DNA of 64,000 bases from Psychroserpens burtonensis DSM 12212 (GTDB lineage Bacteria > Bacteroidota > Bacteroidia > Flavobacteriales > Flavobacteriaceae): assembly GCF_000425305.1 (NCBI RefSeq), contig NZ_AUDE01000010.1, positions 1 through 64,000 on the forward strand. Reading direction: 5' to 3'. Positions within the stretch are counted from its first letter, which is position 1. Each line of letters begins with the position of its first letter. Position numbers and translations under genes: made by a program. Positions 41,754 to 45,000 of the stretch are shown piece after piece. The notes beneath the pieces were generated by a model. The model searched no databases. It worked only from the letters and a program-made list of their open reading frames with translations, and was not told the origin of the DNA.

Positions 41754-43382
41754 TTAAACCTGTAAAACACCCATATTAAAAGGTTTTTCAATAGGAGCGT
41801 GGTTGGCAGCTTCTATTCCCATACTAATCCAAGTTCTGGTATCTAATGGATTAATAACCGCATCTGTCCAAATGCGAGACGCAGCATAGTAAGGAGATAC
41901 TTGGTTATCGTATCTGTTTTTGATTTTGTCGAATAATTCTTTTTCTTTCTCTTCGGTGATTTTTTCACCTTTTTTAAGAAGTGATGCTTTTTCTATTTGT
42001 AATAATACTTTTGCTGCGCTATTTCCGCTCATAACTGCAAGTTCTGCACTTGGCCACGCGACTATTAATCTGGGATCATAAGCTTTTCCACACATAGCAT
42101 AGTTTCCTGCACCATAACTATTACCAATAATAATTGTGAATTTTGGTACCACGCTATTACTAACAGCATTTACCATTTTAGCACCATCTTTGATAATACC
42201 ACCATGTTCAGATTTACTACCAACCATGAAGCCAGTAACATCTTGTAAAAACACTAAAGGGATTTTTTTCTGATTACAATTGGCAATAAAGCGTGTCGCT
42301 TTATCTGCACTGTCATTATAAATCACACCTCCAAACTGCATTTCACCGCTATTTGTCTTTACGAGTTTACGTTGATTGGCAATAATACCAACTGCCCAAC
42401 CATCGATACGCGCATATGCTGTGATGATTGTTTTTCCATAACCTTCTTTGTATTCATCAAATTCACTGTTATCAACTAAGCGTTTGATGATTTCTTTCAT
42501 GTCGTATTGGGCTGCACGTGATTTTGGTAAAATACCAAAGATATCATCAGGATTTTCTTTCGGTTTTTTTGCAGCTATTTTATTAAAACCAGCCTTGTCA
42601 TAATCACCAATTTTATCCACTAAACGTTGAATAGTTTCTAACGCGTCTTTATCGTCTTTTGCTTTATAATCGGTTACACCAGAAATTTCGCAATGCGTTG
42701 TTGCACCTCCTAGAGTTTCATTGTCAATACTTTCTCCAATCGCAGCTTTCACTAGATAACTACCCGCAAGAAAAATACTCCCTGTTTTATCTACAATAAT
42801 AGCTTCATCACTCATTATTGGAAGATAAGCACCACCAGCAACACAACTTCCCATAACTGCTGCGATTTGGGTGATTCCCATACTGCTCATAATTGCATTA
42901 TTTCTAAAAATGCGACCAAAATGCTCTTTATCAGGGAAAATTTCATCCTGCATTGGTAAATACACACCTGCAGAATCCACTAAATATATAATTGGCAACC
43001 GGTTTTCAATAGCTATTTCTTGAGCACGCAAATTCTTCTTTCCAGTAATTGGAAACCACGCTCCAGCCTTCACTGTGGCATCATTGGCAACAACTATGCA
43101 TTGCTTTCCTTTAACATAACCCATTTTCACTATGACACCACCAGATGGGCAACCACCATGTTCTTCATACATGCCATCACCAGCAAAAGCAGCAATTTCT
43201 ATAATTGGTTTTTTTGAATCTAAAAGATAATCAACACGCTCTCTAGCAGTCATTTTGCCTTTAGCATGATGCTTTTCAATACGCGTTACTCCTCCACCAA
43301 GCTTTACTTTGGCGAAACGTTTTTTGAGGTCAGAAAGAAGTAATTTATTATGATCTTCGTTTTTATTGAAGTTTAAATCCAT
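41754..43382 (-). CDS. acyl-CoA carboxylase beta (carboxyltransferase) subunit
   Basis: A full-length 542-aa carboxyltransferase of the propionyl/methylcrotonyl-CoA carboxylase class. N-terminal half: GGCPSGGVIVKMGYVKGKQC, VANDATVKAGAW, YLVDSAGVYLPMQDEIFPD and MGSCVAGGAYLPIMSDE. C-terminal half: FGGVIYNDSADKATRFI, PLVFLQDVTGFMVGSKSEHGGIIKDGAKM and IGNSYGAGNYAMCGKAYDPR. The EHGGIIK segment resembles methylcrotonyl-type more than propionyl-type, which would place it in leucine breakdown, but this is tentative. The biotin-carrying alpha subunit is not next to it. Confidence 0.93.
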   Translation of the reverse strand: MDLNFNKNEDHNKLLLSDLKKRFAKVKLGGGVTRIEKHHAKGKMTARERVDYLLDSKKPIIEIAAFAGDGMYEEHGGCPSGGVIVKMGYVKGKQCIVVANDATVKAGAWFPITGKKNLRAQEIAIENRLPIIYLVDSAGVYLPMQDEIFPDKEHFGRIFRNNAIMSSMGITQIAAVMGSCVAGGAYLPIMSDEAIIVDKTGSIFLAGSYLVKAAIGESIDNETLGGATTHCEISGVTDYKAKDDKDALETIQRLVDKIGDYDKAGFNKIAAKKPKENPDDIFGILPKSRAAQYDMKEIIKRLVDNSEFDEYKEGYGKTIITAYARIDGWAVGIIANQRKLVKTNSGEMQFGGVIYNDSADKATRFIANCNQKKIPLVFLQDVTGFMVGSKSEHGGIIKDGAKMVNAVSNSVVPKFTIIIGNSYGAGNYAMCGKAYDPRLIVAWPSAELAVMSGNSAAKVLLQIEKASLLKKGEKITEEKEKELFDKIKNRYDNQVSPYYAASRIWTDAVINPLDTRTWISMGIEAANHAPIEKPFNMGVLQV

Positions 43383-43463
43383 AGTGTTTTTATTTCCTAC
43401 GAATTTACGAAACCAGTCACATATTAAAAAGTGAATTTTTTGTTAAAATTAATTACATGGAAT

Positions 43464-43481
43464 TATATTCCTAGGAATATA
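43464..43481. promoter_or_regulatory. 18-bp perfect palindrome, likely MarR operator
   Basis: TATATTCCTAGGAATATA is a perfect palindrome 14 bases upstream of the -7 box TATATTTG (43496-43503) and 45 bases before the ATG of the DoxX gene. Size and two-fold symmetry fit a MarR dimer site, and the operon encodes a MarR protein, so autoregulation is likely. Confidence 0.7.
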
Positions 43482-43495
43482 TAATTATTTTGTTC

Positions 43496-43503
43496 TATAT
43501 TTG
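43496..43503 (+). promoter_or_regulatory. -7 promoter box of the DoxX-reductase-marR operon
   Basis: TATATTTG, full match to TAnnTTTG, 23 bases before the ATG at 43527. Confidence 0.65.
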
Positions 43504-43526
43504 CACAGACAAAAACTTTTTAAAAC

Positions 43527-43883
43527 ATGAATCGAGACAAAATTATATATTATCTGGCTACAGGATTATTGACCCTATTACTATTGTTTTCTGTAAGTAT
43601 GTATTTTTTCAATCACGAAGATATCAGGCAAGCATTTACCGGTTTTGGCTATCCAACATATTTAATTTATCCTTATGCAGTAGTTAAGTTACTAGGTTTA
43701 GTCGCGATTTGGTTACCCAATTTAAAAATGTTCAAAGAATGGGCGTACGCAGGTTTCTTTTTTGCATTCATACTCGCATTCTTTGCACATTACATGATAG
43801 GTGATGGTGAGCAAACAGGAGCCTTAATAGCGTTAGTGTTATTAGTAGTATCGTATATTTGTAATAAAAGAATTAAAAACTAA
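43527..43883 (+). CDS. DoxX-like membrane protein
   Basis: A 118-aa protein with four likely helices and DoxX-family features: GFGYPTYLIYPYAVVKLLGLVAIW and WAYAGFFFAFILAFFAHYMIGD. DoxX-like proteins occur with redox enzymes and are linked with quinone or thiol stress. It is the first gene of an operon with an FMN reductase (five bases apart) and a MarR regulator, behind the palindrome at 43464-43481. A frame at 43490-43687 in another phase is a shadow. Confidence 0.9.
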   Translation: MNRDKIIYYLATGLLTLLLLFSVSMYFFNHEDIRQAFTGFGYPTYLIYPYAVVKLLGLVAIWLPNLKMFKEWAYAGFFFAFILAFFAHYMIGDGEQTGALIALVLLVVSYICNKRIKN

Positions 43884-43888
43884 GAGAA

Positions 43889-44419
43889 ATGAAAAAAATT
43901 ATAACATTCGCAGGAAGTAACAGTAAAGATTCAATAAACAAGCAATTAGCAGTTTATGCATCAACGTTAGTTAAAAATGTAGAGATAACTGTTTTAGATT
44001 TAAATGATTTTGAATTACCTGTCTATGGCATCGATTACGAAAAAGAGCATGGCATTCCAGATCATGCGCATAAATTCCTAGACTACATCAATTCTTCAGA
44101 TGGAATGATCATATCTTTAGCAGAGCATAACGGAGCTTACGCAACAGTATTTAAAAATCTATTTGATTGGTTATCTAGAGCAGAAGCTAAAACATTTTGT
44201 GGAAAACCAATGTTGTTGATGGCAACTTCACCTGGAGCAAGAGGAGGAGAATCAGTTTTAGGCATTTCTAGTGAACGTTTTCCACGTCATGACGCTAATA
44301 TTATAGGGAAGTTTTCACTGCCTTCTTTTAATGATAACTTTTCGGAAGGAAAAATTAGTAATTCTAAATTGAATGACCAATTAGTAGAAGAGGTCAAACA
44401 ATTTCAAGAGAGTTTATAG
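43889..44419 (+). CDS. NADPH-dependent FMN reductase / NAD(P)H quinone reductase family
   Basis: A flavodoxin-fold reductase of 176 aa. The phosphate loop is FAGSNSKDSINKQLA, and LAEHNGAYATVFKNLFDWLSR and the tail GARGGESVLG are typical of the YieF/ArsH-type FMN_red family. It probably reduces quinones, chromate-like compounds or flavins with NAD(P)H. Between DoxX and MarR genes, it is the enzymatic part of a regulated redox-stress operon. Confidence 0.91.
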   Translation: MKKIITFAGSNSKDSINKQLAVYASTLVKNVEITVLDLNDFELPVYGIDYEKEHGIPDHAHKFLDYINSSDGMIISLAEHNGAYATVFKNLFDWLSRAEAKTFCGKPMLLMATSPGARGGESVLGISSERFPRHDANIIGKFSLPSFNDNFSEGKISNSKLNDQLVEEVKQFQESL

Positions 44420-44462
44420 ATTAAAGCGAGTTTATTGCAAATTGAAGACTGAAGATTAGTAT

Positions 44463-44900
44463 ATGGGAGATATTTCTAAAGATATAAATTCAACGTTTCC
44501 AAATAATAGAGTGAAAGCAATGCTCAATATTATTTATACTTCAAATTGGATTACGAGTTGTCAAAACGATTTTTTTAAAGATTTTGGGATTTCACCACAA
44601 CAGTATAATATTTTAAGAATATTGAAAGGAGCAGGTGAGCCACTTAACGTTCAAACTATAAAAGATAGAATGTTAGAACGCTCACCAAATGCTACGCGAC
44701 TAATGGATAAGCTTTGTGCTAAAAACTGTATTGAACGTCTACCTTCAGAGCACGATAGACGGGTTGTTAAAATAGTAATTACTAATACAGGGGTAGCACT
44801 ATTAGAATCCATACCAAACGATTTAAATACCGAGTTGTTGAAAAATTTAAATGAAAAAGAAGCAGAGCAATTGAGTAATCTCTTGGATAAAATGCGGTAA
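44463..44900 (+). CDS. MarR family transcriptional regulator
   Basis: A 145-aa winged-helix regulator: ISPQQYNILRILKGAGEPLNVQTIKDRMLERSPNATRLMDKLCAKNCIER (helix-turn-helix) followed by the wing SEHDRRVVKIVITNTG and a C-terminal dimer helix. The DRR in the wing is the usual MarR signature. No Cys placed like OhrR's is obvious, though there are two Cys in the DNA-binding part (LCAKNC). It most likely binds the palindrome upstream of the DoxX gene and possibly the inverted repeat at 44961-44984. Confidence 0.93.
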   Translation: MGDISKDINSTFPNNRVKAMLNIIYTSNWITSCQNDFFKDFGISPQQYNILRILKGAGEPLNVQTIKDRMLERSPNATRLMDKLCAKNCIERLPSEHDRRVVKIVITNTGVALLESIPNDLNTELLKNLNEKEAEQLSNLLDKMR

Positions 44901-44960
44901 CTAAAGTTCTGCATTGGCAGGGATCTTCTTAGGGGCCTTAGTAACTGCGTTTTCTTAACT

Positions 44961-44984
44961 AAATAGTTTCCATAAAAACTATTT
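44961..44984. promoter_or_regulatory. inverted repeat between marR and first pirin gene
   Basis: AAATAGTTT (44961-44969) and AAACTATTT (44976-44984) form a 9-bp inverted repeat with a six-base spacer, 17 bases before the pirin ATG. It could be an operator or a small hairpin; its sequence is unlike the 43464-43481 palindrome. Confidence 0.4.
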
Positions 44985-45000
44985 CAAATAGGATTAAACA

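Follow-up and report, generated by a model that had tools for sequence, protein, structure and literature searches.

The MarR-fold repressor MhqR of Bacillus subtilis and Staphylococcus aureus is encoded beside redox and detoxification genes, and regulons of this type comprise azoreductase, nitroreductase/DoxX and ring-cleaving dioxygenase genes; mhqP is DoxX-like. According to excerpts of the two publications that served as our comparison for gene content (PMC6798810; PMC12893000), the operators of B. subtilis MhqR precede azoR2, mhqNOP, mhqED and mhqA, the operator is a 9-9 bp inverted repeat (TATCTCGAA-aTCGAaATA) occupying -6 to +12 at the start site (PMC6798810), and the quinone pocket of MhqR comprises the residues F11, F39, E43 and H111 (PMC12893000). 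MarR operators seem to be little described in Bacteroidota, and among the matches listed in our literature search, titles and abstract beginnings gave no operator for an operon of MarR, DoxX, FMN reductase and pirin genes.

We analyzed such an operon in Psychroserpens burtonensis DSM 12212, within a stretch of 64,000 nucleotides that is termed the window as a whole (Table 1). For comparison, a scan with the MarR protein yielded 284 relatives; we kept the best 80 loci (the first set), and many of these are from Winogradskyella, Psychroserpens, Algibacter, Hyunsoonleella and other Flavobacteriaceae.

Table 1. Genes and putative control elements of the MarR locus, with their positions in the window
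Feature	Position	Strand	Remarks
PccB-like carboxyltransferase	41754-43382		divergent from the operon
Full operator 1 element	43455..43481	+	27 nt, ACATGGAATTATATTCCTAGGAATATA, including the extra upstream ACATGGAA half-site
Operator 1	43464..43481	.	9-9 inverted repeat TATATTCCT-AGGAATATA; kept in 77/77 assessable relatives (of 80)
-7 promoter box	43496..43503	+	TATATTTG (TAnnTTTG); spacing from the -33 slot (palindrome centre), 21 nt
Predicted transcription start	43508	+	inferred from the box taken as -12 to -5; operator 1 would then span -44 to -27
DoxX-like membrane protein (DoxX_2)	43527..43883	+	
NADPH-dependent FMN reductase family protein	43889..44419	+	
MarR family regulator	44463..44900	+	proposed binder of both operators
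Operator 2	44961..44984	.	AAATAGTTTCCATAAAAACTATTT; in many relatives AAATAGTTTCCATGGAAACTATT
Pirin 1 (Pirin + Pirin_C)	45001..45873	+	
Pirin 2 (YhhW-like, Pirin + Pirin_C_2)	45980..46696	+	

The MarR regulator and its operon

The MarR domain of the window protein scored above the curated cut-offs (PF01047, 41.8 bits against 24.6; PF12802, 41.5 against 27), and the AlphaFold2 model of the protein is a confident MarR fold (pLDDT 86.4). The solved folds nearest to the model were PecS (Z 16.0), MftR (15.5), HucR (15.0) and MhqR (9QDR, 14.7), with many tied. MarR proteins of the PecS/MftR/HucR type are urate sensors; these three were among the best structural matches but were only 17-22% identical to the window MarR. 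The best NCBIfam scores were obtained with HpaR (TIGR02337, 47.3 bits) and MarR (40.4 bits), far below the HpaR equivalog cut-off of 121.2 and the MarR cut-off of 240 bits, and the gene neighbors of HpaR and Escherichia coli MarR differ from those in the window operon. The recognition region (PNxTRLxDKL) and the DRR wing are near-invariant: P75, N76, T78, R79, L80, D82, K83, L84 and D98-R99-R100 were at least 97% conserved over 163 sequences, 131 of which have Cys at position 85.

The DoxX, FMN reductase and pirin genes of the window, joined by an AzoR-like gene in some relatives, resemble the MhqR system in content, with the pirins in place of MhqE/MhqD. The putative operator upstream of the operon is likewise a 9-9 repeat with the same TAT...ATA ends, but its core is TTCC-NN-GGAA, the MhqR sequence TATCTCGAA-ATCGAAATA was not matched, and it lies over -33 instead of at the start site. 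The similarity to S. aureus MhqR in sequence was weak (9QDR, E 3.6e-4, behind 26 other PDB sequences). Since neither the sequence relation nor the operator core fits, we did not file the window protein as MhqR, although, judged by analogy, it most likely works like MhqR. The reading of the locus as a redox or quinone-stress module, put forward in a preliminary description of this DNA, is plausible from the gene content. The induction of Bacteroides fragilis pirins by oxygen and iron limitation, as given in an excerpt of PMC11304471, is in keeping with a stress role of the locus.

The gene order, with a leftward PccB-like gene followed by rightward (DoxX) FMN reductase, MarR and pirin genes, was nearly constant across the 80 loci. 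We opened eight loci in which a long gap precedes the reductase gene, and in five of them (L017, L019, L022, L023 and L084) the first gene of the operon is an AzoR-like ORF. Its product in L017, the sole copy profiled, scored 141.7 bits with PF02525 and best matched FMN-dependent NADH-azoreductase models, at scores below their cut-offs. A small ORF lies between the reductase and MarR genes in six of the seven loci opened there; that of L007, the only one profiled, encodes a GNAT protein (PF14542). Just upstream of the PccB-like gene in the window (43383-43430) stands the stretch TACGAATTTACGAAACC, which is repeated in many relatives and is perhaps that gene's own promoter.

Using the window MarR as the query at E<=0.001, we obtained three matches in the host genome, namely the protein itself and two others with 34% and 26% identity. 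The 34% identical paralogue is encoded upstream of a gene on the same strand, which we take to be YceI-like from the look of its sequence, and has a different palindrome, ATTTGTATATACAAAT, in front of it (4564-4579 of L265, own genome C14:31500-38500). This palindrome stands on a TACATTTG box and is a natural contrast for operator specificity.

The palindromic element upstream of the operon

The 18-bp perfect palindrome TATATTCCTAGGAATATA was found exactly as the preliminary description had it, 14 bases before a full-match -7 box, and is the sole perfect palindrome of at least 16 bp within the window. Under a first-order Markov model of the AT-rich window, 0.57 palindromes of at least 18 bp, and 0.28 of those with at least four G/C, are expected per 64 kb. 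Thus, the palindrome by itself is compatible with chance, and the case for a function rests on its conservation. The host genome contains one full-match copy of TATATTCCTAGGAATATA only, at the window site, and matches with up to three mismatches were about as numerous (7) as those to the reversed control (6).

The promoter was readable in 77 of the 80 loci of the first set (L010, L036 and L065 end before it), and all 77, as well as the window, possess a recognizable operator 1 within a longer, 27-nt element with the consensus ACATGGAAwTAkwTTCCtwGGAAwmTA. The strict form of this consensus fitted 60 of the 78 loci, the window included. The upstream ACATGGAA varies as little as the palindrome arms, with C at -12 in 78/78 loci and the GG at -9/-8 in 77/78 and 78/78; its GGAA stands 15 bp away from the downstream one. 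We regarded ACATGGAA as a half-site and rejected it as a full palindrome, because one inner pair (A-G) fails in 75 of 78 loci and the outer arms do not pair.

The strict consensus, written as ACAYGGAANTANNTTCCNNGGAANNTA, was scanned against 397 family genomes, 149 of which contain a MarR orthologue (E<=1e-30). It was found in 66 genomes, once each, and every match sits 0.6-1.9 kb upstream of a MarR orthologue on the MarR strand; none occurred in the 248 genomes that gave no MarR match at this threshold, and the reversed control gave no match among the 397 genomes. From genomes lacking the strict pattern, we gathered a second set of 82 MarR loci (of 150 listed; G389, the 83rd genome, was left out), and a matrix built from the first set scored at least 15 upstream in 65 of them, as against none of 82 on the reversed sequence (best control, 2.7). 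For the rest of the second set (17 of the 82, below 15), a looser scan, run without a null, placed the site in most cases 40-110 nt ahead of the first known gene; the exceptions were two contig ends (L180 and L206) and two loci with MarR but no reductase upstream (L204 and L244). In several distant orthologues (45-60% identity), the core is now TACC-NN-GGTA, both arms being changed with the shape kept (e.g., TTTACCATGGTAAATA).

The preliminary description had taken the palindrome as the likely operator of the MarR protein, had suggested looking for it upstream of homologous operons, and had named its loss from relatives that keep the operon and MarR as counter-evidence. Conservation and operon specificity support that reading, with an element that is longer than first described and covers -33. 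Nearly all readable loci keep the palindrome along with the operon and MarR, and the exceptions, the distant loci L221, L224 and L230, carry a weak form only. A 16-20 bp (pseudo)palindromic site at the regulator's own operon, a trait of the MarR family, is present here as the conserved 18-bp repeat. Altogether, the palindrome is a strongly conserved DNA switch site of marine flavobacteria, very probably that of the MarR repressor of this small, stress-related operon.

Relaxed searches of the host genome returned 23 and 26 matches against 37 and 38 for the reversed pattern, and related sites numbered 45 against 37 in the reversed control. In the absence of a clear excess we claim no wider regulon; the one informative weak match from the relaxed searches was operator 2. 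These counts also bear on another candidate binder, a global redox or metal regulator that would have the MarR gene as merely one of its targets. Such a regulator would have many sites, and the few seen argue against it: strict sites did not exceed one per genome and always stood at the MarR operon, and related sites in the host were hardly, if at all, above the control. The variants of the operator did not covary cleanly with MarR residues, which would fit a foreign binder, but we consider this alternative very unlikely. When MarR residues were compared with the operator core type, the top columns were spread over the protein and confounded by descent, and the recognition helix was not singled out.

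Changes in the two arms of operator 1 were counted as pairs in 78 loci (the first set and the window), with the sites picked by the core and left context and not by the right arm, and were compared with 300 shuffles that ignore relatedness. Position 6 was complementary in 59 of 78 loci (41 expected; best shuffle, 53), and position 7 in 60 (52.6 expected; best shuffle, 61), the latter not beyond chance. Positions 2-5, 8 and 9 hardly varied, and no pairing was detected beyond position 9 in these loci. On the MarR tree, complementary types at position 6 switched 21 times (parsimony, 156 loci, no null); the second-set sites were picked by a score that rewards paired arms, so that the 156-locus counts lean towards pairing.

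The consensus of the -33 promoter element is TTG. That of the -7 element is TAnnTTTG at positions -12 to -5, as stated in an excerpt of PMC9723704, and a box with five or six of its six fixed bases was found at a near-fixed distance in 76 of the 78 loci. The spacing from the slot in the palindrome centre to the TA of the box was 20 nt in 67 loci, 21 nt in 8, as in the window, and 22 nt in 1. This search began 13 nt after the slot; when it was begun 1 nt after the slot, 68 of 78 loci still had their best match at 20-22 nt, and in the remaining 10 a match at 3-11 nt was as good or better. In L031 and L076 the box is found at 10 and 8 nt, that is, 10-12 nt closer, so that the palindrome centre cannot be the -33 slot in those two loci. 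The centre of operator 1 reads TT in 61 of the 78 loci, TA in 14, AT in 3 and AA in none, and that of operator 2 AT in 50/50. The directional bias towards TT is expected if the centre of operator 1 doubles as the -33 TTG; at 20-22 nt from the box, the centre would fill the -33 slot. The triplet in the window is TAG, which is weaker than TTG.

In the window and the great majority of the 80 loci the element stands between the operon and the divergent PccB-like gene, and could in principle belong to the latter. We regard this as extremely improbable given its near-fixed distance to the rightward -7 box and its persistence ahead of the operon where an AzoR-like gene has been inserted at the front, all five loci with that ORF keeping the element in front of it. 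Moreover, seven loci of the second set have the reductase gene with no PccB match in an uncut stretch (L203, L216, L217, L220, L234, L239 and L242). The operator matrix gives 18-31 for five of these and only 3-4 for L220 and L239, in which a looser palindrome is left.

MarR could also act as an activator or dual regulator from the site at about -44 to -27, the centre of which, near -35.5, is close to a position used by some activators. The window and the other loci with a TA or AT centre (17/78) lack TTG in the -33 slot, and a second dimer could sit on the additional ACATGGAA half-site further upstream. On the other hand, the TTG centre in 61 of 78 loci fills the -33 slot itself, which MarR binding would thus hide, and autorepression is the usual mode of MarR proteins. 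We consider activation unlikely and retain repression as the preferred reading.

A second palindrome before pirin 1

The stretch from the MarR stop to the pirin 1 start contains a second palindrome (operator 2), which the preliminary description had overlooked. Its consensus in relatives is AAATAkTTTCCATGGAAAmTATT, preceded by a T7 tract; in the window the arms are intact, and the right half of the core has AA for GG (CCATAA). With at least 10 of 12 core matches, operator 2 was present in 49 of the 52 loci in which pirin 1 follows (window included) and in one of the 27 in which a pirin-2-type gene follows; two loci in this comparison had no pirin. Searched without mismatches in 199 genomes, it was found in 17; 15 of these matches lie 17-62 nt after the MarR match, and two are away from a MarR gene.

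Pairs were counted in 50 loci (the first set and the window, picked likewise by the core and left context). Position 7 was complementary in 41 of them (21 expected; best of 300 shuffles, 30), the pair types being T-A, G-C and C-G, and position 10 in 38 (27 expected; best shuffle, 36). Position 7 showed 11 switches by parsimony in 48 loci, again with no null.

Paired changes in a stem are also what an RNA hairpin controlling pirin translation would leave. As RNA, operator 2 folds at -7.6 kcal/mol. Its centre is positioned 28 nt before the pirin 1 ATG in the window, and in 41 of 50 loci the distance to the start codon is 23-33 nt. Operator 1, however, has the same core and, standing upstream of the promoter, is outside the transcript made from it, and Rfam gave no match at the gathering level over 43300-46800 of the window. 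A role as RNA instead of a DNA site seems to us improbable, and we treat operator 2 as a putative DNA site.

The T7 tract (TTTTTTTAA) stands directly 5' of operator 2 in L005-L084, with T in 46-50 of 50 loci at each of the seven places, and may be a -7 box, a terminator U-run or a bend. The window has TTTTCTT where relatives carry this tract, and its gap between MarR and pirin 1 (44901-44960) is about 45 bases longer than in many relatives, in which this distance is 55-60. At the 3' end of MarR, a stem resembling a terminator ahead of the T tract (mean -2.4 against -0.7 kcal/mol for base-shuffled sequences, 50 loci) was weak, absent in the window (0.0), and rejected.

Away from any MarR gene, an operator-2-type palindrome, AAATATATTTTCCATGGAAAATATATTT, stands ahead of a TACATTTG box in L259 (1496-1523; G131:C1) and precedes a lipoprotein-like gene (1569-2201), a possible extension of the regulon in one genome. 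Another such match, in L249, was inspected over 350 bases, and a search there with the seven window proteins gave no match.

A model for the control of the locus

We consider it highly probable that a MarR repressor regulating its own operon governs the locus, an MhqR-like redox/quinone-stress module, from two local operators. A MarR dimer on the 9-9 repeat would cover the -33 region (about -44 to -27) and keep the sigma-A RNA polymerase from the TAnnTTTG promoter of doxX-FMN reductase-marR; in this way the protein would repress its own operon and keep expression low. Release of MarR would come from a ligand or an oxidant, for which a quinone-like or other electrophilic compound is the most likely candidate. 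The same protein would bind operator 2 through the shared TTTCC-NN-GGAAA core, tying pirin 1 to the same signal. Both elements, their conservation, their association with the MarR operon, the paired changes at some arm positions and the near-fixed distance to the -7 box support this model at the level of sequence, from which we infer MarR as the binder and as a repressor. The choice of a quinone as the inducer, guessed from gene content by analogy, has about an even chance of being right.

A more elaborate arrangement is conceivable but rather doubtful, in which a Flavobacteriaceae-wide switch would use the three half-sites of operator 1 (ACATGGAA, TTCC and GGAA) to hold two MarR dimers, with the centre as the -33 element, and the T7-fused operator 2 would give the pirin its own control. 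If this three-half-site arrangement were true, one regulator would read one signal with two geometries.

This type of control is itself well known, and what is added here is the longer element, the overlap with the promoter and the second operator. With a pair of matched sites, variants of them in about 150 orthologues and a shared promoter element, the specificity of the regulator can be tested directly, and the locus links the bacterial pirins, of which the role is unclear, to a defined circuit.
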